Shown here piece by piece: positions 46,941 to 63,849 of a stretch of 64,000 nt of DNA. Position numbers and translations under genes: made by a program. Numbering within the stretch: position 1 is the first letter of the stretch; each line of letters starts with the position of its first letter. The notes below the pieces were generated by a model that did not search any database, had not been told where the DNA came from, and was given only the letters and a program-made list of their open reading frames with translations. Origin of the DNA: Quadrisphaera setariae. Its GTDB lineage: Bacteria > Actinomycetota > Actinomycetes > Actinomycetales > Quadrisphaeraceae. The DNA lies in assembly GCF_008041935.1 (NCBI RefSeq), contig NZ_VKAC01000002.1, positions 372,001-436,000 of the forward strand, in the 5' to 3' direction.

Positions 46941-47885
46941 TCAGTCCTCGCTGTGGACCACGGCCACCGGGCCGTGCGCGTGGTGGATGACCGCACGGCT
47001 GACCGAGCCGAGCAGCAGCCCGCGGAAGCCGCCGGAGCCGCGCGTGCCCACCACGAGCAGCTCCGCGCCGCGCGCCGCCTCGAGCAGGGCGGTCGCGGGG
47101 TGGTCGCGCACCACCCGCTCGTGGACCACCACGTCGGGCACGGTCTGCCGGGCGTCGGCGACCACCTGCGCCAGCAGGTCGGCCTGGGCCCGCTCCAGGG
47201 CCACGAGCTGCGCGTGCGCGGGCCCGTGCTGCGTGGACCCCCACAGCGACGGCGGCTGCCACGCCCGCACGGCCGTGACCTCCGAGCCGCGGGCCGCGGC
47301 GGCCCGGAGCGCGAAGACCAGGGCCCGGCACGCCGCAGGGGAGCTGTCCGCACCGACCACCACGCCGCGCCCCGTCGCCGCCGGTGCCTCAGACGCGTCC
47401 GGTGGCCTGACGACGACGACGGGGCAGTGCGCGTGCACAGCGACCTGCGCGCTCGTGGACCCGAGCATGAGATCGGCGAAGGCGCCGTGACCGCGCGAGC
47501 CGAGCACCACCAGGCGCGCGGCCGCGCTCTCCTCCAGGAGGGCGGGGACGGCGGCGGCCCAGTCGTGGACAGCGCTGCCCACCTCGAGGCCGGAGTGGTC
47601 GCCGCGGAGGCGCGTCAGGGCCTGGTCGGCCAGCTGCTCACCGAGCCGGCGGAGGTCCGGCGGCGCCAGCAGCGCACCCGCGGCCTCCGGGCTCGCCACC
47701 GGGTGCCAGTCGACGCAGACCACCACGCGCAGCGGTGCGCCGAGGCGTTCGGCCTCCTCGCCCGCCCAGGCCAGGGCGCGCACGGACCCGTCCGAGCCGT
47801 CGTACCCGACCACCACGTGGTGCCTGCCCGGCGGCGGTGGGTCGGGCCGCCGGCGGACGTCGTGCTCCTGCTCCGAGGTGGACAC
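46941..47885 (-). CDS. Universal stress protein with two Usp domains
   Basis: A 314-residue tandem Usp. Each half has the ATP-binding signature: VLGSRGHGAFADLMLGSTS in domain 1 (about 120-150) and VVGTRGSGGFRGLLLGSVS in domain 2. Domain 1 opens with VVVGYDGSDGSVRALAWA. Actinobacterial tandem Usps respond to hypoxia and other stress. GTG 47885 has a GGAGGGAGG ribosome site. Confidence 0.93.
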   Translation of the reverse strand: MSTSEQEHDVRRRPDPPPPGRHHVVVGYDGSDGSVRALAWAGEEAERLGAPLRVVVCVDWHPVASPEAAGALLAPPDLRRLGEQLADQALTRLRGDHSGLEVGSAVHDWAAAVPALLEESAAARLVVLGSRGHGAFADLMLGSTSAQVAVHAHCPVVVVRPPDASEAPAATGRGVVVGADSSPAACRALVFALRAAAARGSEVTAVRAWQPPSLWGSTQHGPAHAQLVALERAQADLLAQVVADARQTVPDVVVHERVVRDHPATALLEAARGAELLVVGTRGSGGFRGLLLGSVSRAVIHHAHGPVAVVHSED

Positions 47886-50964: not shown

Positions 50965-51112
50965 GTGGCGCAGAACCCCCGATCACCGGCATTTGCGCCG
51001 GTCGGCGCGCCCGCGCACCGCGGGTCCAGCGCTCGCCGTCCGGGATTGACGTCAGCGATGCGGCCCACGACGGTGGCGCGATGGTCGTGACGCCGTTCGA
51101 AGGGCCGGTCCG

Positions 51113-51484
51113 GTGAGAGTGCTGCACATGGCCTCGAGGTCGGTCTGGGAGCGCGCGCAGCGCGACGGTGCCTACCGCGGCTCGACGCTCGGCGCCGACC
51201 TCGAAGAGGTCGGCTTCGTGCACGCCTCCACGGCCGACCAGCTCCCCGGGGTCGTCGAGCGGTTCTACGCCGGAGAGGACCTCGCCGACCACGTGCTCCT
51301 CGTCGTCGACGTCGAGGCGTGCGAGGCCGCCGGCTCGCCCGTGCGGTGGGAGGGACCCGTCGAGCACGGCGGTCCGTTCCCGCACGTCTACGGCCCGGTG
51401 CCGCTGACCGCGGTGGTCTCGACCGGGTCCGTCGAGCGCGGCCCTGACGGTCGGCTGAGCCTGCCGGAGCTCGGCGGTGCGTGA
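51113..51484 (+). CDS. DUF952-family protein
   Basis: A 123-residue cytosolic protein from GTG 51113. The family pattern is clear: LHMASRSVWERAQRDGAYRG, GFVHASTADQLPGVVERFY, then HGGPFPHVYGPVPLTAV near the end. DUF952 proteins share a fold with small ADP-ribose or glutathione-related proteins, but the role is unknown. It stands between the PBP gene (divergent) and the glycan locus. Confidence 0.88.
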   Translation: MRVLHMASRSVWERAQRDGAYRGSTLGADLEEVGFVHASTADQLPGVVERFYAGEDLADHVLLVVDVEACEAAGSPVRWEGPVEHGGPFPHVYGPVPLTAVVSTGSVERGPDGRLSLPELGGA

Positions 51485-51529
51485 GACCCACCGGGTGCGC
51501 GACGGAGTGCCGGGTTCGAACAGGTGATG

Positions 51530-51535
51530 CAGACT
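51530..51535 (+). promoter_or_regulatory. -10 box of the first glycan module (CAGACT)
   Basis: CAGACT ends 7 bases before GTG 51543, with no ribosome site. Same layout as the PBP gene. Confidence 0.55.
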
Positions 51536-51542
51536 GCCCGTC

Positions 51543-52676
51543 GTGATCGGCGAGCCCTCCCCGCCGGCGGGCGCACCCGTCACCGTGCTGCACGTCCCGG
51601 GCGACCACGACTACGTCGCTCACACCGCCGACGAGCGCGTCCCCGGCGTCGTCCTGCTCGACGCCCCGCGGGCCCCGGGCCGCGGGTGGGCGCCGTCGCC
51701 GGCGCTGGAGGCCACCTGGGTCGCCGAGCACGCGCACCTGTTCGACGTGCTCCACCTGCACTTCGGGTTCGAGGGCCGCACGCCGCAGCAGCTGCGCGAC
51801 CTCGTCACCGCCCTGCACGGCGCGCGGAAGCTCCTCGTGCTCACCGCGCATGACCTGCAGAACCCGCACCTGGCCGACCAGCGGCCGTACGAGGCGCTGC
51901 TCGACGTGCTCGTGCCCGCAGCGGACGCTGCCCTGACGCTGACCGAGGGCGCGGCCGCCGAGATCAGCCGCCGGTGGGGCGTCGACGCGGTCGTCGTGCC
52001 CCACCCGCACATCGCGCCGCTGGACGAGGTCGGCCTGCCGCGCGCACCCCGGGCGCCGGATGGCGAGCGCGTGGTGGGCCTGCACCTCAAGAGCCTGCGC
52101 GCCAACCTCGTGGCGCTGCCGGTGCTGCGCAGCCTCGCCGCAGCGGTCGCGGCGCTGCCGGGCGTGCGGCTGCGCGTCGACGTCCACGACGAGGCCCTCG
52201 ACCCCGCCTTCGGCCGCCACGACGCGGAGCTGGTCGCCTGGCTGCGCCGGGCCCACGACGACGGCGACCTCGACCTGCGCGCCCACGGCCGCTTCGACGA
52301 CGCCGAGCTGCGCGACTACCTGCGATCCCTCGACGTCTCGGTGCTCGCCTACGGCCACGGCACGCACTCGGGGTGGCTGGAGCTCTGCCACGACCTCGGC
52401 ACCCCCGTGCTCGCCGGCCCGGTCGGGCACCTGCGCGAGCAGCAGCCGCTGGTGGAGGCCGACCTGCTCGACCCCGACGACGTCGCCCGCGGCCTGGCGC
52501 GCGCGCTCGCGGGGCCATCGGGCCTGCCCGGCGCCGCTGCCACCGCCGCCGACCGCCGCGAGCAGCGCCGCGAGGTCGCCCTGGCCCACCGCGACCTCTA
52601 CCGCCGCCTCGTCGGCGTCGCCCGCGCTGGCAGCACCACCAGCCCCAGCACCTCCAGCTCAGGGGCCACCGCGTGA
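51543..52676 (+). CDS. GT-B fold glycosyltransferase
   Basis: A 377-residue glycosyltransferase-like protein. The N-terminal half has an acceptor-side Rossmann fold (VTVLHVPGDHDYVAHTA, FDVLHLHFGFEGRTPQQLRD, LVLTAHDLQNPH). The C-terminal half has RFDDAELRDYLRSLDVSVL, GTHSGWLELCHDLGTPVLA and GPVGHLREQ, where group-4 enzymes bind the nucleotide sugar. The E-x7-E motif is not obvious, so the class is tentative. First gene of a GTGA-coupled set of three. Confidence 0.75.
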   Translation: MIGEPSPPAGAPVTVLHVPGDHDYVAHTADERVPGVVLLDAPRAPGRGWAPSPALEATWVAEHAHLFDVLHLHFGFEGRTPQQLRDLVTALHGARKLLVLTAHDLQNPHLADQRPYEALLDVLVPAADAALTLTEGAAAEISRRWGVDAVVVPHPHIAPLDEVGLPRAPRAPDGERVVGLHLKSLRANLVALPVLRSLAAAVAALPGVRLRVDVHDEALDPAFGRHDAELVAWLRRAHDDGDLDLRAHGRFDDAELRDYLRSLDVSVLAYGHGTHSGWLELCHDLGTPVLAGPVGHLREQQPLVEADLLDPDDVARGLARALAGPSGLPGAAATAADRREQRREVALAHRDLYRRLVGVARAGSTTSPSTSSSGATA

Positions 52677-53755
52677 TCGGCTGGTACGTGCACCACCAGG
52701 GGGTGGGGCACCTGCAGCGGCTCGTCGCCGTCTCGCGGTACCTGCGCACCCCCGTCACGGCGCTCAGCTCCGCGCCGCGACCCGCGGGCTTCGCGGGGGA
52801 GTGGGTGCAGCTGGACCGCGACGACGACGACCCCGTCGACAGGTCCTCGGCCACCGCCGGCGGCGCCCTGCACTGGGCTCCGCTGCACCACGCGGGTCTG
52901 CGCTCGCGCAGCGCCGCCGTGGTGGAGTGGGTGGCGCGGGAGCGGCCGGCCCTGTTCGTCACCGACGTCTCGGTGGAGATGACCGCGCTGGTGCGGCTGT
53001 GCGGCGTGCCCGTGGTGGTGGCCGCGATGCTCGGCGACCGCCACGACCCCGCCCACCTCCTCGGCCGCTCCCTCGCGCAGGCGCTGCTCGCGCCCTGGCC
53101 CGCTCCCGGCCGCGCTGGTGAGGAGGACGACGACGAGCGCCGCGACGCGCCTCCGGCTGCGCAGACCCCCGTGCTGCACGTCGGGGCGTTCTCCCGCTTC
53201 GACGGCCGCGACGCCCCGACGGACGCGTCCGAGCCCGGGCGGGTGCTGGTGCTGTGGGGCAGCGGCGGGCGCGACGTCACCGACGCCGACCTGCTCGCCG
53301 CGTGCGAGGCCACCCCCGGCTGGCGCTGGGAGCACCGCGTGCCCGGCTCGGCCCTGTTCCGGACGACCACCCGGGCCACCACGCCCGCGCCGGTCCAGGG
53401 CGCGTCTGCGGACCAGGGCGGCGACGACGTGTGGGAGGCGCTGCTGCGCGCGGAGGTCGTCGTCGTCCACGGCGGGCACAACGCGGTGGCGGAGGTGGCC
53501 GCGGCGCGGCGCGCGGCCGTGGTCGTGGCGCAGGAGCGCCCCTTCGGCGAGCAGGTGCGCCGGGCGGAGCTGCTGCGCGGCGAGGGGCTGGTGGCGCTCG
53601 ACGCCTGGCCGCAGGCCCGCGAGTGGCCGGCGCTGCTGGAGCGGGCGCGCGAAGTCGGCGCCGGGCCCTGGCAGCGGTGGGCCCCGGGAGACGGCGCGGA
53701 GCGCGCAGCGCGGCACCTCGACGCGATGGCCGCGAACGGCGGGAGGCTCGCGTGA
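52673..53755 (+). CDS. MurG-like glycosyltransferase
   Basis: About 360 residues. It opens IGWYVHHQGVGHLQRLVAVS, like the GxGxH start of MurG/GT28 enzymes, and carries the nucleotide-sugar half with RVLVLWGSGGRD, VVVVHGGHNAVAEVAAARRA (matching the family's GGxxT/N region) and ERPFGEQVRRAELL. It probably moves a sugar from a nucleotide donor at the membrane's inner face. Start GTG 52673 overlaps the previous stop and its own stop overlaps the next start (GTGA both times). Confidence 0.82.
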   Translation: MIGWYVHHQGVGHLQRLVAVSRYLRTPVTALSSAPRPAGFAGEWVQLDRDDDDPVDRSSATAGGALHWAPLHHAGLRSRSAAVVEWVARERPALFVTDVSVEMTALVRLCGVPVVVAAMLGDRHDPAHLLGRSLAQALLAPWPAPGRAGEEDDDERRDAPPAAQTPVLHVGAFSRFDGRDAPTDASEPGRVLVLWGSGGRDVTDADLLAACEATPGWRWEHRVPGSALFRTTTRATTPAPVQGASADQGGDDVWEALLRAEVVVVHGGHNAVAEVAAARRAAVVVAQERPFGEQVRRAELLRGEGLVALDAWPQAREWPALLERAREVGAGPWQRWAPGDGAERAARHLDAMAANGGRLA

Positions 53756-54693
53756 GCGCGACCGCTGCGACGGCTGTGCTCACGATCGTCGCCGGGCGCC
53801 ACGACCACCTGCGCGGCCAGCTGCACGGGCTCGCCGCCCAGACGTCTCCGCCCGCCCTGCACGTGGTCGCGTCCATGGGAGACCCGCGGGTGCGCTCCGT
53901 GCTCGACGAGGTGCCCGCAGCGGCTGCCACCCGGCGCGTCGTCGTCGACGTCGCGGTCCCCGAGCACGGGGAGGGAGCGGGTGAGCTGCCGCTGGCCCGC
54001 GCCCGCAACGCCGCGGCCGCTGAGGCCGCTGCGCACGGCGCTGAGCTGCTGGTGCTCCTCGACGTCGACTGCGTCCCCTCACCCGACCTCGTCGCCACCT
54101 ACCAGCGCGCTGCGGCGTCTCAGGAGGTCCGTGCGGCCGCCGGGCCGTCGCTGCTGTGCGGCCCCGTGGCGTACCTGCCGCCGCACGTGCGGGTCACGGG
54201 CCCGCGCGACCTCGCCGCGCTGCCCGGTGCTGCGCCTCCGCACGCCGCCCGGCCCGCCCCGGCCGACGGGCGGGTGGTGCTCGCCGGTGAGGACCAGTGG
54301 TGGCTGTTCTGGTCGCTGTCGTTCGCGGTCACCGCGCACGACTGGCAGCGCTTCGGCGGCTTCTGCGAGGAGTACCGCGGCTACGGCGGGGAGGACACCG
54401 ACGTCGCCGCGACCGTGCGCGACCTCGGCGGGGCGCTGTTCTGGGTCGGTGGCGCGCACGCCCACCACCAGCACCACCCCGTCTCGAGCCCGCCGGTGCA
54501 GCACCTGGCGGCGATCGTGCGCAACGGCGCGGTGTTCCGGCGCCGCTGGGGCTGGTGGCCGATGACGGGCTGGCTGGAGCGCTTCCAGGCCGACGGCCTG
54601 GTGGACTACGACGCCGCGACCGACACCTGGTCGCTCGCGGCGGAGCGCACACCGGAGCCCGTCGACGCGGCCCGCAGGAGCAGCGCCTCGTAG
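53752..54693 (+). CDS. Family 2 glycosyltransferase with GT7-like C-terminal motif
   Basis: About 313 residues. GT-A fold with the metal-binding DVD in LLVLLDVDCVPSPDLV and the acceptor-side motif FGGFCEEYRGYGGEDTDVA (GGED, as in galactosyltransferase-like GT2 enzymes), followed by HAHHQHHPVS, a His cluster. Inverting transfer is expected. Last gene of the first plus-strand trio. Its final 88 bases overlap the end of the opposite-strand GT4 gene. Confidence 0.88.
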   Translation: MSATAATAVLTIVAGRHDHLRGQLHGLAAQTSPPALHVVASMGDPRVRSVLDEVPAAAATRRVVVDVAVPEHGEGAGELPLARARNAAAAEAAAHGAELLVLLDVDCVPSPDLVATYQRAAASQEVRAAAGPSLLCGPVAYLPPHVRVTGPRDLAALPGAAPPHAARPAPADGRVVLAGEDQWWLFWSLSFAVTAHDWQRFGGFCEEYRGYGGEDTDVAATVRDLGGALFWVGGAHAHHQHHPVSSPPVQHLAAIVRNGAVFRRRWGWWPMTGWLERFQADGLVDYDAATDTWSLAAERTPEPVDAARRSSAS

Positions 54694-55796
54694 CGGTCGA
54701 CCATGGCGTCGGCGGACAGGTGCGAGAGCGCCGCCGCGCGCACCGCCCGACGGTCCAGGGCCAGGACGGGCTCGACCGCCGCGGCCATCGCCTCGACGTC
54801 GTCCGGGGCGACCACCGCACCGACCTGCTGGCCGACGCCGGGACGCAGCACCTCGGACAGCCCGCCGCGGCCGAAGGCCACCACGGGCGTGCCGCACATC
54901 GCCGCCTCGGCGGCCACGAGGCCGAACGGCTCGTCCCACGCGGGGGTGACGAGGACGGCGCTGGCCCGGCCGACGGCACGAGCGAGGTCGGTGCCGCCGA
55001 GGTGGCCGTGCCAGGTGGCGCCGGCGCCCAGGTGGGGCGCCACCTGCTCGGCGAAGTACTCCTCGTCCAGCACCGGCCCGACCAGGTGCAGGTGGTGCCC
55101 CGCGGCGGCCGCCGCGGCGAGGGCCAGGTGAGGTGCCTTCTCCGGCACGATGCGCCCGAACCACAGCAGCCCGCCCCCGCCCGGGCCGAGGGGCCAGCGC
55201 CGCGGGTCGACCCCGTTGTGCACCACGTCCGCCGAACCCACCCACGGCGCCCACTGCCGTGCGGTGAACCGGCTGACGGCGCTGAACGCGTGCGAGGAGC
55301 CGCCGGCGTCCAGAGCGGAGGTCAGCCACGGCGTCGGCGGGGTGTGCAGGGTGGTGAGCGTCGGGAACGGCAGGGTGTCGGCCATCGAGATCGGCAGGTG
55401 GTGCAGCGAGTTGTTGTGCACCACGTCCACCTCGCCGGCGTAGGTGGTGCGCAGCGCCGTGAGCACGTTCAGGTGGGCGTGGTGCTCGCGCAGGAAGGCC
55501 TCCGCTGGCATCGAGGCGTCCTGACGGGACAGCTCGTCGGGACGCCACCCCCCGCCGCAGAGGAGCTCGGGCTGCGCGGCGCTCGACCCGGCCGCAGCGA
55601 ACAGCAGCACCCGGTGCCCGCGCGCGCGCAGCCCGGTGACCAGGCCTCCCACGAAGGACTCGAGGCCGCCCGAGTACGGCTCGGCGATGGGGTAGCGGCT
55701 CGGACCGAGGACGGCGACCGTCAGCCGCCGTCCCGGCCCCGCCGGGGAGATCGGTCCGCCGAGGGTGCTGGTGCGGCTCGGCGGGCGGGGGATCAC
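54606..55796 (-). CDS. Family 4 glycosyltransferase
   Basis: About 396 residues. GT-B fold: VAVLGPSRYPIAEPYSGGLE at the start, HNNSLHHLPI and VVHNGVDPRRWPL mid-protein, then LLWFGRIVPEKAPHLALAA and the E-x7-E donor motif in DEPFGLVAAEAAMCGTPVVA. Retaining transfer from a nucleotide sugar is expected. GTG 55796 was preferred over TTG 55808. It is divergent from the WcbI-like gene and convergent with the GT2 gene, overlapping it. Confidence 0.9.
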   Translation of the reverse strand: MIPRPPSRTSTLGGPISPAGPGRRLTVAVLGPSRYPIAEPYSGGLESFVGGLVTGLRARGHRVLLFAAAGSSAAQPELLCGGGWRPDELSRQDASMPAEAFLREHHAHLNVLTALRTTYAGEVDVVHNNSLHHLPISMADTLPFPTLTTLHTPPTPWLTSALDAGGSSHAFSAVSRFTARQWAPWVGSADVVHNGVDPRRWPLGPGGGGLLWFGRIVPEKAPHLALAAAAAAGHHLHLVGPVLDEEYFAEQVAPHLGAGATWHGHLGGTDLARAVGRASAVLVTPAWDEPFGLVAAEAAMCGTPVVAFGRGGLSEVLRPGVGQQVGAVVAPDDVEAMAAAVEPVLALDRRAVRAAALSHLSADAMVDRYEALLLRAASTGSGVRSAASDQVSVAAS

Positions 55797-55869
55797 GGCC
55801 CGATGCAACCACCCCCGGGCCCCCTCCGCCCGCCGTGGTCGGCCGACTGGCCGGATCGGCGCACGCCCC

Positions 55870-55875
55870 TACTGT
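55870..55875 (+). promoter_or_regulatory. -10 box of the second glycan module (TACTGT)
   Basis: TACTGT ends exactly 7 bases before GTG 55883. No ribosome site. This supports GTG 55883 over earlier in-frame codons. Confidence 0.65.
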
Positions 55876-55882
55876 TCTCGAG

Positions 55883-56890
55883 GTGCTGAGCCCTGGACCT
55901 GCCCCGCTGACGGGCCCGCCGACCGGTGCGGTGACGGGCCGGCACCGGCACTACGGGACGTTCTACGGCCTGGAGCAGGTCGAACAGGACGACCGCCCGC
56001 TGCTGCTCGTGCACGGCAACTGCCAGGCGGAGTCGCTGCGGGTGCTGCTGTCGGGCGGTTCGCAGCAGGCGGGTCACCGCTCCCCGGTGCGCACGGTGCG
56101 CGTCCCGCCCGTTCACGAGCTGACCGCCGACGACTTCCCGCACCTGCACGCGCTGCTCGCCCGCGTCGACGTGGTGGTGTCCCAGCCCGTGGCCGACGGC
56201 TACCGCGGCCTGCCGCTGGGCACCGCCGAGGTCCTCGAGGCCGCCCAGCGGGCTCGGGGCGGCGGACGCCCGCCGCAGCTCGTGGTGGTGCCCGTCCTGC
56301 GCTGGGCCGCGCTGCACCCGTTCCAGGTCATCGTGAGGGCACCAGGGGCGGGCGAGCCCCCCCTGGTGCCCTACCACGACCTGCGGACCCTGGCCCTGGC
56401 CGCCGGAGCCGCTCCGCTGCCCGAGGTCCCCTCCGCTGCGGCCGTGCGCGCCGTGCGCGACCTGTCCGCCACCGAGCTGAGCTCGCGCCAGGAGCGCCAC
56501 GGGTCGCTGCCCGTGGTCGACCTGCTCACCGACGCCGGCGCGCACGCCACGCACACCGTGAACCACCCCGGCAACGGCGTGCTCATCGGGCTCGCCCGCC
56601 GCGTGCTGGCGGCGGTGGGCCTGCCCGACGGCGTCGCCGACCCCGGTCGCACCCTGCTGGACAGCGTCCACGCTCCCGTGCTCCCCGAGGTGCTCGACGC
56701 CCTCGGGCTCGTCGACCAGGCGGGCTCCGCCCGCCCCTCGTGGCGCGTGCACGGCCAGGACCTCGACGACGACGAGGTCCGAGACGCCCACCTGCGCTGG
56801 TACGCCGAGCACCCCGGTGTCGCCGAGGCGGGTCTGGCGCGCCACGCCGCTGCCGCTGCCGCGCTGGCCGGGACGGGGCGGACCGCGTGA
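55883..56890 (+). CDS. WcbI-like polysaccharide biosynthesis protein
   Basis: About 335 residues. The WcbI signature LLLVHGNCQAESLRVLL (GNCQ) is near residue 40, and THTVNHPGNGVLIGLARRVL lies further on. WcbI from Burkholderia capsule clusters is an acetyltransferase-like enzyme of capsular polysaccharide; family members often modify glycans. First gene of the second trio, coupled to the next by GTGA. Confidence 0.82.
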   Translation: MLSPGPAPLTGPPTGAVTGRHRHYGTFYGLEQVEQDDRPLLLVHGNCQAESLRVLLSGGSQQAGHRSPVRTVRVPPVHELTADDFPHLHALLARVDVVVSQPVADGYRGLPLGTAEVLEAAQRARGGGRPPQLVVVPVLRWAALHPFQVIVRAPGAGEPPLVPYHDLRTLALAAGAAPLPEVPSAAAVRAVRDLSATELSSRQERHGSLPVVDLLTDAGAHATHTVNHPGNGVLIGLARRVLAAVGLPDGVADPGRTLLDSVHAPVLPEVLDALGLVDQAGSARPSWRVHGQDLDDDEVRDAHLRWYAEHPGVAEAGLARHAAAAAALAGTGRTA

Positions 56891-57960
56891 GCGTCGTCTG
56901 CCTGGTGGTGGGTCCGACCGAGCACGGGGTGGTGGAGGTGGCCGTCCACCAGCACCACGCGCTCGCAGCCGCTGCCGACCGTGACGGCGACCCCCGGGCC
57001 GTGCACCTCGTGCGCCTCGACGAGCGGCCAGGAGCTGAGGCGCTGCTTCGGGCCGTGCGCGCCGCCCCGGAGGGGCCGGTGCTCGTGCACGTCACCGACA
57101 AGCTCTTCGGGCGCGGACCCGAGGAGGCGGCGGACGTGCTCGAGGCGGTCGCGGGGGAGCGGCAGCTGGTGGTGGCGCTGCACGACCTGCCGCAGGCCAG
57201 CGACGGGGCCGTCAACCACCCGCGGCGCGCCGCGGCCTACCGGCGGGTCGCCGGTGCCGCTGCCGCAGTGGTCGTCGCGAGCCGCCACGAGGAGCGCCTG
57301 CTGCGCGCCTGCTGGGGCGCCCCGGGCGACGGGCCGGACGGGCTCGACGTCGTCGTCGTCCCCCTGCCGGTGCCGGTGCTGGACCGCTCAGGTGGGGTGA
57401 CGGCCGCGGCGCCGACTGACCCGGGCGCCCCGCCGCAGGCGGTGGCGGTGCTCGGCTACCTCTACCCGGGCAAGGGGCACGACGCCGTGGTCGAGGCGCT
57501 CGACGCGCTGCCGCCCGGGGTGGGGCTGCTGGCGTGGGGCAGGCCGTCATCGGGCCACGAGGACCTGGTCCCCGCCCTGCAGGCGCAGGCGGGAGCGCTC
57601 GGGCGCACGGCGCACGTCAGCGGCTGGGTGGCCTCGGAAGACCTGCCGGGCCTGCTGCGCTCGCCCGTGGTGCCGGTGGCGCCGCACGCCCACCTGTCGG
57701 CGTCGGGGTCCATCAACGCCTGGATCGCCGCGGGTCGGCGTCCGCTCGTGCCGCGCAGCGACTACGCCGCCGAGCTGCTGGAGCGCACCCCCGGCTGCGT
57801 CACCGCCTACGACGACCTGCGCGTCGCCCTGGCGCGGGCGTGGGCCGACCCGGGCAGCACGTGGCTGGTCCCCGGTCCGCCGACCGGCCCGACCGTCGAG
57901 CAGACCGCGGCGCAGGTGCGCGCGGTGCTGGAGGCACTCCCCACCGAGGTCGACGCGTGA
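56887..57960 (+). CDS. GT-B fold glycosyltransferase
   Basis: About 357 residues from GTG 56887 (GTGA overlap). N-terminal half: VLVHVTDKLFGRGPEEAADV, VVALHDLPQAS. C-terminal half: AVAVLGYLYPGKGHDAVVEA (donor-side strand and Gly loop), HVSGWVASEDLPGLLRSPVV and LSASGSINAWIAAGRRPLV. The pattern is that of GT4-like enzymes with a weak E-x7-E. The substrate is unknown. Its layout resembles the gene at 51543, so the two modules may contain paralogues. Confidence 0.78.
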   Translation: MSVVCLVVGPTEHGVVEVAVHQHHALAAAADRDGDPRAVHLVRLDERPGAEALLRAVRAAPEGPVLVHVTDKLFGRGPEEAADVLEAVAGERQLVVALHDLPQASDGAVNHPRRAAAYRRVAGAAAAVVVASRHEERLLRACWGAPGDGPDGLDVVVVPLPVPVLDRSGGVTAAAPTDPGAPPQAVAVLGYLYPGKGHDAVVEALDALPPGVGLLAWGRPSSGHEDLVPALQAQAGALGRTAHVSGWVASEDLPGLLRSPVVPVAPHAHLSASGSINAWIAAGRRPLVPRSDYAAELLERTPGCVTAYDDLRVALARAWADPGSTWLVPGPPTGPTVEQTAAQVRAVLEALPTEVDA

Positions 57961-59297
57961 GCGGCGCCAGCACCACGACCGTGTCGGTGGTGGTGCCGCA
58001 CTACGAGGCGCCGCACGACCTGTCGCTGCTGCTCACCGCGCTGGAGCTGCAGGACCACCCGCTGCACCTGCTCGACGTGGTGGTCGCCGACGACGGCTCG
58101 GCGCAGGCCCCCGACCCCGGCGAGCGGCCCTACCGGGTGCGGGTGGTGGCCCAGGCCGACGAGGGCTTCCGCGCCGCCGCCGCACGCAACCTGGGCGCTG
58201 CCGCGGGCAGCGGGGAGGTGGTCTGCTTCCTCGACGCCGACACCGTCCCCGAGCCCGGGTACGTCTCCGCGGTGGTCCGCGCCGTCGAGGCGGGCGCCGA
58301 CCTCGTGGTCGGCCGGCGCCGCCACGGCGACCTCGCCTCGACCTCCCCGGACCAGCTGCGCCGCTGGTTCGGCGGTGACGCCGCGTCCGCGCCGGAGGAG
58401 TTCGAGGAACCGGCGTGGCTGCTCGAGGCGTACGAGCGCACCGACCACCTGCGCACCGCCGGCGACGACGCCTACCGCTTCGTCATCTCGGCGGTGCTCA
58501 GCACCACGCGCGCGCTGTTCGAGGAGGTGGGCGGCTTCGAGGAGACGTTCACCGCGTACGGCGGGGAGGACTGGGAGCTCGCGCACCGCTGCTGGCTGGC
58601 GGGCGCGACCTTCCACCACGAGCGGGACGCGGTGGCCTGGCACGACGGCGAGGACTTCGCCGGCCGCACCGACGACGACGACGCGCGCCGCTCCCGCAAC
58701 GTGGAGGGGCTCGCGCTGGCGCGGTTCGTCGCCGGGCCCGCCACGCGCGGGCAGCCGGGTGGCGGCCTGGTGTGGGACCACCCCGACGTCGTCGTCGTCC
58801 TCGACGACGCGGCAGGAGGCGGGCTCGCGGAGGACGCCGACGGCGCCGACGCGGTCGCCTGCGTGATGTCCCTGCTGGCGGGCAGCGACGCCGGGGTGTG
58901 GCTGCGCGACGGCCGGGTCGCGGCGCTGCTGGACGACCCGCGCGTGCACGTCGGCGAGCCGCCGCGCGCGGTGCTCGGTCGCTGCCGCTACCGCGTGGAC
59001 CTCGACCGGCCCGTGGTGCTGGTCGGCGCGACGCTCGCCGAGCTCGCCGAGGTCGCGCCGGTGCGGGTGGGGGAGCACCTCGTGGTGCGCCGCACCCGTG
59101 ACGACCACCGCGAGGACGGCGCTGAGGTGCTCGTGCTCGACGCCGACGGGGTCTCAGCCGACGTGCCGCGCGCGGTGGACCTCCAGCGGGCGTGGGGCCG
59201 GGCGGACCACCAGCACGAGCCGCGCTTCCAGCGGTCTGGTCACCTGTCCGAGCGCACGCCGTCGAGCGTCACCGAGCGGCCGATCGCCTCGGCGTAG
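57957..59297 (+). CDS. Family 2 glycosyltransferase with extra C-terminal domain
   Basis: About 446 residues from GTG 57957 (GTGA overlap). GT-A core: VSVVVPHYEAPHDLSLLL, DVVVADDGSA, ARNLGAAAGSGEVVCFLDAD (DxD) and VGGFEETFTAYGGEDWELAH (GGED). The last 150 residues are an Asp/Val-rich domain I do not recognise (VVVVLDDAAGGGLAEDADGA). Last gene of the second trio. Its 3' end overlaps the FkbM gene on the other strand by 58 bases. Confidence 0.9.
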   Translation: MSGASTTTVSVVVPHYEAPHDLSLLLTALELQDHPLHLLDVVVADDGSAQAPDPGERPYRVRVVAQADEGFRAAAARNLGAAAGSGEVVCFLDADTVPEPGYVSAVVRAVEAGADLVVGRRRHGDLASTSPDQLRRWFGGDAASAPEEFEEPAWLLEAYERTDHLRTAGDDAYRFVISAVLSTTRALFEEVGGFEETFTAYGGEDWELAHRCWLAGATFHHERDAVAWHDGEDFAGRTDDDDARRSRNVEGLALARFVAGPATRGQPGGGLVWDHPDVVVVLDDAAGGGLAEDADGADAVACVMSLLAGSDAGVWLRDGRVAALLDDPRVHVGEPPRAVLGRCRYRVDLDRPVVLVGATLAELAEVAPVRVGEHLVVRRTRDDHREDGAEVLVLDADGVSADVPRAVDLQRAWGRADHQHEPRFQRSGHLSERTPSSVTERPIASA

Positions 59298-60115
59298 GCG
59301 GGCACCACCGCGTCGTCGACGGCGCCGTCCGCCACGAGCTGCGCCAGGCAGCGGACCGCGAGGTCGGGTGAGGCGTAGACGTGGTGCGCCAGCAGCGCCA
59401 GGTGCTTGAGCTGCTCGGCGGTGAGCTCCTCGAGGCGGCCGAAGTCCTTGACGTAGGCGACGTCGGCCTCGATGACCTGCTGGTGGTTGGTGAAGATGTA
59501 CCCGTCGATGACGGCCGGGGCGATCGGCCACTTCTTGAGGGTGGCGAACGTGTGCAGCACGAAGCCCTGGGCGCGCAGCTCGGCGTCGACCTCGCCGAAC
59601 AGCGGCTGGCCCTCGTACAGCGGCGCGAACGACATCTCCGTGTGCACGGCCACCGCGCCCGCCAGGGTGGTCCGGCCGTTCTGGAAGACCGGCAGCTCGG
59701 AGCCCTGGACGTCGATCTTCAGCAGGTCCATCGGACCGAGGTCGGTGATGTCGTCCAGGCGCGTGGTCGCCAGGCTCGTGCGGCTGAGCACCTCGCCGTA
59801 CCGGGCGAACTCGTTGAGCGTCGACAGCCGGGCGACGTCGGGCTCCAGCAGGCTGGTCATGCCGTTCATCCACGTGACCCTGAGCTCGTGCTCGCCGCCG
59901 TCGCCGACGGCGTGCGGCAGGTACCGCTCGTTCGGGCCCGCCGCGTCGAGCAGCAGCTGCAGCGCCTCCGGCTGCGGCTCGAAGCCCGTCACCGTGCACA
60001 GGCCCGCGCGGAGCATGTCGACGTAGGGCGGGTCGCCGTCGATGGGGTTGGCGCCGATGTCGACGACGGCGGTGAGCCGCTCGGGGGACAGCAGGTCGGT
60101 CCAGGTGCGCGCCAC
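59240..60115 (-). CDS. FkbM-family methyltransferase
   Basis: A 291-residue SAM-dependent O-methyltransferase. The SAM-site start TAVVDIGANPIDGDPPYVD and the acidic VTGFEPQPEALQLLL are followed by the FkbM core MDLLKIDVQGSELPVF. Such enzymes often methylate sugars in surface glycans or natural products, which fits its place at the end of the glycan locus. GTG 60115 follows GAGAGGGG. Confidence 0.9.
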   Translation of the reverse strand: MARTWTDLLSPERLTAVVDIGANPIDGDPPYVDMLRAGLCTVTGFEPQPEALQLLLDAAGPNERYLPHAVGDGGEHELRVTWMNGMTSLLEPDVARLSTLNEFARYGEVLSRTSLATTRLDDITDLGPMDLLKIDVQGSELPVFQNGRTTLAGAVAVHTEMSFAPLYEGQPLFGEVDAELRAQGFVLHTFATLKKWPIAPAVIDGYIFTNHQQVIEADVAYVKDFGRLEELTAEQLKHLALLAHHVYASPDLAVRCLAQLVADGAVDDAVVPAYAEAIGRSVTLDGVRSDR

Positions 60116-60229
60116 AGGGGCCCCTCTCGTCGGCGACCGGCGCCGACGGACCCCGGGCTCCGGAGGCTACGGCGCGTCGGCCAGCACCGCCCGGCGGACG
60201 GACGCCACGTGGACGAGCCGCGGGTGGGC

Positions 60230-60781
60230 TCAGGCGGGCGGCTGCTCAGGGGGTGCCACCGGCAGCCACGCCGGGTCCGCCACGGAGAGCCAGCGCTGGG
60301 CGGTCGTGCCGTCGAACGGCGCCTGACGGGCCCTCACGGCGGCGAGCACCGAAGCGCTCGCCGCCCGCGCGGCTGCCTGCAGCTGCGGCGGGTAGGCGTA
60401 GCGGACGCGGTGCAGCTCGAACTCGTCCTCGTCGTCGACGAACGGCTCCTCGCCGGTCCGCTGGACGACGTCGAGGTCGAGGTCGGACATCGTCACGCGC
60501 CCCGCCGACCAGGTCGCCGGGGTGGTGATGTCGACGTACGTCGTCACGTGCGACGTTCCACCGCCGTCGTAGAGCGTGGCGGCCCAGTGCTGACCCCGGG
60601 GGACGCAGAGGACGTTGGCGCGGTCGTAGGTGAACGCCAGGCCCGGCCGCCAGGTGGGCGTGCCCGCGGGGGAGTGCAGCCAGGTGCCGTGCTCGTCGTC
60701 ACCGAGCAGGCGGGTGCCGATGTGCCAGTGGGGCGAGCCGTCGTACTTGGTGAACGCCACCTGCACCTCGTCACCGGTCAC
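60230..60781 (-). CDS. DUF402-family protein (FomD-like)
   Basis: About 183 residues from GTG 60781. This start is chosen because TAGCGT ends 7 bases upstream and the family homology begins here (VTGDEVQVAFTKYDGSPHW). A longer frame from GTG 60856 would almost touch the divergent gene at 60865. Family pattern: GTRLLGDDEHGTWLHSPAG, YVDITTPATWSAG and VTMSDLDLDVVQ. FomD-type members hydrolyse nucleoside diphosphates or CMP-linked intermediates with a metal. Confidence 0.85.
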   Translation of the reverse strand: MTGDEVQVAFTKYDGSPHWHIGTRLLGDDEHGTWLHSPAGTPTWRPGLAFTYDRANVLCVPRGQHWAATLYDGGGTSHVTTYVDITTPATWSAGRVTMSDLDLDVVQRTGEEPFVDDEDEFELHRVRYAYPPQLQAAARAASASVLAAVRARQAPFDGTTAQRWLSVADPAWLPVAPPEQPPA

Positions 60782-63426: not shown

Positions 63427-63849
63427 ATCATCCGGCGCACGGACCGCACTGCTGTCGGCGCACTGGCTGCCACCTCGCTCCTCGTGCTGACCCTCGGGGG
63501 CTGCTCGAGCGACTCAGACCTGGCGAGCCGCAACCTGTCCACCGAGGCCGAGCGGTTCGAGGTGGACCGGCAGATCGTCTTCTCCAACGGCGTCACCGAC
63601 GCCTACGTGCTCGAGATCCAGGGGCGCTGCTCGGTGGACCCGGCCGAGTCGCTCGACGCGCTCGAGGTGACGTGCGAGGTGGGGGACGGCGAGTACGAGC
63701 AGCACCTGCTGGGGCTCAGCGACAAGACGACGTGCTTCGTGGAGCAGCTCGAGAGCCGGGACGTCTCCACCTACCACGACGAGGTCGCCTTCGAGCCGGA
63801 GTCGATCGTCCCGGACGACGACCTGTCCACCAGCTCCGACGGAGGCTGA
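63427..63849 (+). CDS. Lipoprotein without a canonical start codon
   Basis: The frame encodes a textbook lipoprotein signal: [18 protein letters not shown], then [10 protein letters not shown] with lipobox LGGC. Yet no ATG, GTG or TTG exists in frame between the TGA at 63418-63420 and GTG 63484, which lies inside the hydrophobic core. Options are initiation at ATC 63427 or 63430, or a one-base indel that detached GTG 63417, which is one base out of frame. The mature part is about 115 residues, acidic, with two Cys pairs candidate for disulfides (GRCSVD, VTCEVG, TTCFVE). No family. Confidence 0.6.

Follow-up and report, generated by a model that had tools for sequence, protein, structure and literature searches.

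A block of eight genes in a 64,000-nucleotide stretch of the Quadrisphaera setariae genome (contig NZ_VKAC01000002.1, positions 372,001 to 436,000; this whole stretch is hereafter the window) combines a conserved core of four glycosyltransferase (GT) genes, A1-B-A2-A3, with an extension module, built around C2-C3, that depends on the core. The idea, put forward in an original prediction made from the DNA letters of the window, that the block serves one glycan-type pathway is strengthened, and the genes appear to be inherited together. The core set is conserved and, it appears, undescribed: it occurs in about one in seven genomes of an even class sample and begins with an enzyme family (A1) that neither Pfam nor NCBIfam names, and no description of the block or the core was found in the open-licence literature, a scope outside which most subscription papers lie.

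The block consists of six plus-strand genes in two trios and two convergent minus-strand genes, the coordinates of which were rechecked:

51530..51542, plus strand: weaker promoter-like element, CAGACT plus a 7-nucleotide spacer before the GTG of A1
51543..52676, plus strand: A1, GT-B glycosyltransferase whose family neither Pfam nor NCBIfam matches; first core gene
52673..53755, plus strand: A2, MurG/UDP-glycosyltransferase-like; core
53752..54693, plus strand: A3, GT2/Glyco_transf_7C-like glycosyltransferase with GGED; core
54606..54693: A3/B convergent overlap, 88 bases
54606..55808, minus strand: B, GT4 glycosyltransferase; convergent with A3 here, elsewhere the second gene of the core operon
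55870..55882, plus strand: possible leaderless promoter, TACTGT plus a 7-nucleotide spacer before the GTG of C1
55883..56890, plus strand: C1, WcbI-family putative acyltransferase
56887..57960, plus strand: C2, glycosyltransferase related to Alr3699/HepE (profile E 1.3e-8); extension module
57957..59297, plus strand: C3, GT2 with GGED whose C-terminal part extends past the GT2 match; extension module
59240..59297: C3/D convergent overlap, 58 bases
59240..60115, minus strand: D, FkbM-family methyltransferase, mostly seen with the window-type arrangement

The conserved core and its dependent module

A scan of genome contigs with the A1 family gave 450 relatives, of which the best 80 loci were kept. 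A1-B-A2-A3 lie on one strand in 62 of these best 80 (exactly so in 57 and within a larger set in 5), and single-sequence tblastn found C2 in 15 of the 80, C1 and C3 in 14 each, and D in 3. In the even class sample of 394 genomes, A1 (E 1e-30) was present in 58 genomes at 60 places, and profile searches found A1-B-A2-A3 contiguous and colinear at 48 of those places. The window was alone among the 60 in carrying B opposite to A2-A3. Since the core is colinear elsewhere and the window is the sole exception of 60 for the strand of B, the two-trio symmetry is mostly a local rearrangement, in few lineages, of a four-gene core operon together with the C module; B on the opposite strand with the C module behind it, as in Quadrisphaera, Kineococcus and Blastococcus, gives the look of parallel trios. 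The picture of two trios, each met by a convergent gene, thus does not stand as a general design, B normally being the second gene of the A operon. Single open frames that are possible fusion genes join A1 to A3 (L046, 9558-11552), A2 to A1 (L047, 9134-11278) and C2 to C3 (L047, 5764-8181) and support the partnership of these enzymes.

The relation between the two halves of the block is one of dependence. C2 was found in 27 of the 394 genomes, all of them among the 58 A1 carriers, and at the genus level all 12 C2 genera belonged to the 20, out of 122, that have A1 (P 1e-11, kinship ignored). C2 lay less than 10 kb from A1 in 20 of the 27 genomes, 28 kb away in one, on another contig in four and more than 380 kb away in two, and its dependence on A1 holds also for these 6 of 27 genomes in which the two are unlinked. 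Given that C2 occurs in A1-carrying genomes 27 times out of 27, compared with A1 in 58 of 394 genomes overall, both halves can be taken to serve one pathway in which the C module would extend or decorate the core product, and this co-occurrence is the strongest evidence for it. C2-C3, often with the WcbI gene C1, is a separable, optional module. The C2 and C3 clusters were each present in 26 of 67 loci, and the C1 cluster was present in 14. A near-identical layout, with C3-C2-C1 divergent from A1 and no B, A2 or A3 found beside them, was observed in Kitasatospora arboriphila (L094) and Williamsia muralis (L103), and transfer or record contamination could account for this near identity.

Within the genus, the block is either whole or absent in the genomes examined. 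It is carried by four of five congeners, of which three (G001, G003 and G004) have all eight genes in the window order, so that the gene order proved to be conserved in close relatives. In the draft genome G005, the eight genes are split between two contigs, each of which has C1 and C2; the C1 and C2 copies of these contigs (L039 and L040) differ in their identity to the window, perhaps because two strains are present in one assembly. The fifth congener, G002, has neither A1 nor C2; the genes that border the block in the window (DUF402, DUF952 and PBP) adjoin one another there, and no block gene was found in that 20-kb stretch. Since the flanks adjoin without the block in G002 while the other congeners hold all of it, the block seems to have been gained or lost as a unit in the genomes examined. 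Its position among the flanks varies: G004 has DUF952 between DUF402 and D. An MCP gene also neighbors DUF402, DUF952 and PBP in G002 (L258, 11275-16315), on the PBP side rather than on the DUF402 side as in the window. Beyond these congeners, G057 and Kineococcus rubinsiae share the window-type arrangement, both with D; so do four Blastococcus genomes, in which D was not found, and G050 has it in pieces. A full block at 77 to 92% identity is present in a record named Streptomyces sp. NP160 (L053), probably a misnamed member of the window's genus. The congener loci and the best 80 loci come partly from the same genomes (e.g., L037 and L053), and the counts are dependent within the genus.

Junctions, promoter-like elements and the likeness of the two trios

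The coordinate check confirmed the two plus-strand trios, their GTGA junctions and the convergent overlaps of 88 and 58 bases, and A3 and C3, which close the trios, are both GT2 types with GGED. All four within-trio junctions of the window are GTGA, and in 12 related loci each of the 44 trio junctions examined reads NTGA. A3 and B overlap in all 11 of the 12 loci that hold both genes, by 67 to 124 bases and always by 1 mod 3. Both the junction pattern and the A3/B overlap exceed chance. Among the six relatives that hold both C3 and D, three have the 58-base overlap and the other three have a gap of 19 to 109 bases; in one of the latter (L037), the tblastn match of C3 continues beyond the C3 stop. 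The persistence and fixed phase of the A3/B overlap speak for the possibility, raised in the original prediction, that the convergent overlaps are antisense regulatory elements. This explanation strikes us as improbable, given that the C3/D overlap is lost in half of the relatives and that B is not antisense to A3 in the colinear loci. Two coding frames that exclude frameshifts would also keep the phase fixed, and long antisense open frames are common in such high-GC DNA. Coding constraint alone could be the cause of the persistence.

A -10-like hexamer had been proposed 7 bases before each trio, and this holds better for C1 than for A1. TACTGT precedes the GTG of C1 by 7 nucleotides in the window and is found at the same place in six of six sequences (the window and L036 to L040, from four congeners). 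Read by eye, the GTG 7 nucleotides after it is in frame in four of the six (the window, L036, L037 and L039); in L038 and L040, the GTG at that spacing is in another frame, and the next one in frame lies 18 nucleotides away. CAGACT, which stands 7 nucleotides before A1 in the window, L036 and L037 (CACACT in L038), is a weaker match to TANNNT. A TANNNT-type motif in this position is placed for leaderless transcription, with which these promoter-like elements are in part consistent. A simple scan of positions 51000 to 60500 found no sigma-70-type promoter and no intrinsic terminator.

The original prediction had further proposed that one module was duplicated to give the two trios. Similarity between matching genes does exist at the profile-profile level, where hhalign (3 family members of odd length were left out) linked A3 to C3 (99.5%, E 1.5e-22) and A1 to C2 (97%, E 5e-11) far above A1-B (19%) or B-C2 (15%), and the second-best match of A3 in its own genome is C3 (52 bits). 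However, the relation is not reciprocal, since the next-best matches of C3 are at C5:100627 (another GT2) and C5:177647, with A3 the third non-self match, and hmmsearch with the A1 profile does not reach C2 at E 1. Nor do the trios match one to one (A1-A2-A3 versus WcbI-C2-C3): four of the eight genes, A2, B, C1 and D, lack a partner in the other module, no cross pair between the modules other than A3-C3 and A1-C2 exceeded 16% probability, and the usual core is A1-B-A2-A3 and not a trio. Module duplication as proposed was rejected on the own-genome profile searches and hhalign, and we regard it as very unlikely. The likeness of A1 to C2 and of A3 to C3 is taken as superfamily kinship, and an ancient duplication of a single GT pair (A1/A3 to C2/C3) is possible on profile similarity.

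Enzyme families, the proposed pathway and its alternatives

Pfam-type matches confirmed the families proposed for C1 (WcbI), B (GT4) and D (FkbM). C1 matches PF18588 (WcbI) at E 5e-59, with 199.9 bits against a curated cutoff of 29.2, as well as PDB 4bqn (profile E 4e-13). Its Cys47 (GNCQ) and His228 (NHP) are invariant in 16 sequences and correspond to Cys14 and His201 in the coenzyme A (CoA) site of WcbI from the Burkholderia pseudomallei capsule (PDB 4bqn/4bqo), which contact CoA according to the WcbI report (PMC4104973). C1 is a WcbI-family protein and a putative acyltransferase, although it comes from another phylum, has other neighbors and has no capsule export genes beside it at the window block. 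The MurG-like character claimed for A2 was borne out by its family profile, which matches MurG 7d1i (E 5e-8) and UDP-glycosyltransferases, but not by Pfam, in which its sole match, Glyco_tran_28_C, scores 18.1 bits against a cutoff of 22. Likewise, the sole Pfam match of C2, Glyco_trans_4_4, is below the cutoff.

A1 had no match in Pfam (to E 0.5), in NCBIfam (to E 0.1) or among GT4 sequence models, and its profile gave only two matches in the PDB, both non-credible (DNA polymerase III tau, E 0.05 and 0.18). By fold comparison, we are confident that A1 adopts the GT-B fold. Alr3699/HepE of Anabaena (PDB 4xso and others) has ~14% identity to A1, and donor and acceptor need not be shared. By profile, chondroitin synthase (2z86/2z87) is the closest solved relative of both A3 (E 8e-13) and C3 (E 4.5e-42); it is larger (~625 residues), whereas A3 and C3 have one GT2 match each.

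From the observed enzyme classes, linkage and co-occurrence, we infer how the donor sugars, acceptor, order of steps, export and function might fit together, and we hold it somewhat probable that the eight genes make up one glycan assembly pathway in two layers, a core and an optional extension. The four cytosolic glycosyltransferases of the core would act one after another to put sugars on a shared acceptor, which is most likely a lipid of the membrane or a carrier lipid, and C2-C3 would add further sugars to the core product. C1 probably acylates the product, and D probably methylates it, before its probable export by a general flippase and display at the cell surface. Such a nested design of core and extension makes the order of the pathway testable. 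The imp cluster of Actinoplanes missouriensis, which serves a sporangium matrix polysaccharide, appears by analogy to be the nearest described analogue in kind that we found: according to its report (PMC12691653), it is actinobacterial and has four glycosyltransferases (three GT4 and one GT2) for an extracellular polysaccharide. It differs in having membrane proteins, three in number, of which one is Wzx-like, one carries an Alg6/Alg8 domain and one has no predicted domain; none of them is in the window block, and the two were likened by description and not by sequence (PMC12691653).

Several observations weigh against such a two-layered glycan pathway. Neither the eight genes nor the 20 recurrent neighbor families that were annotated (from a homemade gene caller, which may miss or fuse genes) include a polymerase, flippase, ligase or sugar-nucleotide gene. 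The window also does not resemble a Wzx/Wzy-type locus, in that no flippase or polymerase was found among the eight genes, the two flanking genes and ten further window genes, the rest of the genome not having been searched. That the partners lie elsewhere, as originally suggested, is a reasonable supposition, given that none of the 20 neighbor families is a polymerase or flippase. C1 is absent from many C2-C3 loci (14 against 26), and two loci (L237 and L240) hold C2-C3-C1 and A1 without adjoining B, A2 and A3; their genomes also carry a complete core at another A1 place. WcbI itself had no acetyltransferase activity in vitro, according to its report (PMC4104973). Finally, unlinked C2-C3 pairs stand beside unrelated genes, one of them next to TauD and ATP-grasp enzymes, neighborhoods that would also fit small-molecule glycosylation.

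The latter point bears on an alternative that we consider doubtful but worth weighing, in which the enzymes act on a soluble small molecule or on a storage or osmolyte glycan, whether kept in the cell or secreted, and do not build a surface glycan. No membrane protein family was matched in the block, the unlinked C2-C3 pairs of G167 and G219 lie beside oxidative tailoring or ligase genes, and the structural neighbors of A1 include the small-molecule GT4 enzymes BshA, MshA, SenB and LmbT. Fold likeness alone is no proof of function, however, and A3 and C3 resemble the GT2 domain of chondroitin synthase. In addition, WcbI and FkbM proteins usually modify polysaccharides or glycolipids. One of these neighborhoods (G167; L254, 5168-11321) has C2-C3-C1 after genes of the TauD dioxygenase and ATP-grasp ligase types, in what looks like a single operon resembling a natural-product cluster.

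Alternatively, the block could make a protein-linked glycan with an oligosaccharyltransferase that lies elsewhere. Cytosolic glycosyltransferase sets without a polymerase also occur in glycoprotein pathways. We give this explanation little credence, since no oligosaccharyltransferase was among the 20 annotated neighbor families, a result obtained without a search of the window's own genome.

Core copies near SigB/F-type sigma factors

Other copies of the core recur in a setting in which the window copy was not found. Among the matches listed, a SigB/F/G-type sigma factor lay within 20 kb of A1 at at least 18 of 60 places, compared with 1.2 expected, and within 5 kb at at least 11 of 60, compared with 0.3 expected. 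These counts are lower bounds because the test used 130 matches (E <= 3.6e-43), from a list that reached into the range of the housekeeping sigma factors, and could have passed over weaker members; the expectation rests on random placement and rounded genome sizes and ignores kinship. The other 42 places had no sigma factor within 20 kb among the matches listed. The 18 sigma-linked places represent six genera and four families, with 13 in two genera of one family and half in one genus. As a control, T2SSF was found, by eye, within 50 kb at none of the 60 places among the matches listed. BrkB, likewise counted by eye among the matches listed, lay within 20 kb at 4 of 60 against a rough estimate of ~1.3, a mild enrichment at most. 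The recurrent neighbors of A1 include SigB/F-type sigma factors, GAF-ANTAR regulators, BrkB, catalase, a haem-oxygenase-like protein, FAD/Rieske oxidoreductases and Zn-alcohol dehydrogenases. Seven Rhodococcus plasmids have a match, and the three that were examined (L133, L134 and L135) carry the quartet among stress-island-type genes, with genes for a SigB/F/G-type sigma factor, an ATP-binding anti-sigma-like protein, YhjD/YihY/BrkB, FUSC and xanthine dehydrogenase in its surroundings.

Sigma linkage and C2 linkage largely concern different copies. A sigma factor lay within 20 kb at only 2 of the 21 A1 places that have C2 within 30 kb (among the matches listed). In an A1 tree of 58 sequences, from which short ones were left out and whose bootstrap had not settled, the sigma-linked and C2-linked copies cluster apart, requiring 3 changes each compared with 12 in shuffles, with 22 rows outside both groups. 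Two genomes (G303 and G351) have one sigma-linked and one C2-linked copy each, and in two others (G294 and G167) C2 and a sigma factor are both no more than 30 kb from A1. The window copy is C2-linked and has no well-supported neighbors on the tree. It was also not found in a stress island: the two listed SigB/F/G-type matches of its genome (G000) are on other contigs (C1 and C10), while three weaker matches of that genome lie beyond the list. The likeness to SigB/SigF stress islands is seen in the other core copies. The only stress-type gene noted near the block is a universal stress protein gene with two Usp stretches (46941-47885), ~4 kb away.

Upstream of A1, GGGTA[ACT] alone was found in 23 of 71 cases, compared with 115 of 743 other first genes (P 0.0008). 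The two-part pattern GNNT-N14-17-GGGTA[CT] was found in 9 of 71 compared with 47 of 743 (Fisher P 0.05), and GTTT-N14-17-GGGTA was found in 3 of 71 compared with 14 of 743. This motif enrichment is too weak to assign A1 a SigB/F promoter or membership in that regulon, and the assignment was rejected.

A tentative synthesis, which we put forward at less than even confidence, is that a single actinobacterial glycan made by a four-enzyme cassette leads two lives. A decorated form would carry C2-C3, WcbI and sometimes FkbM, with decoration strictly dependent on the core, whereas a solo form would have entered SigB/F stress islands and Rhodococcus megaplasmids on repeated occasions, to make an envelope glycan induced by stress. 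The stress-island link of the other copies suggests a condition under which the glycan might be found. Elsewhere in the window, a small protein (63484-63849) matches the Pfam family Phage_VG64 (E 3e-42).

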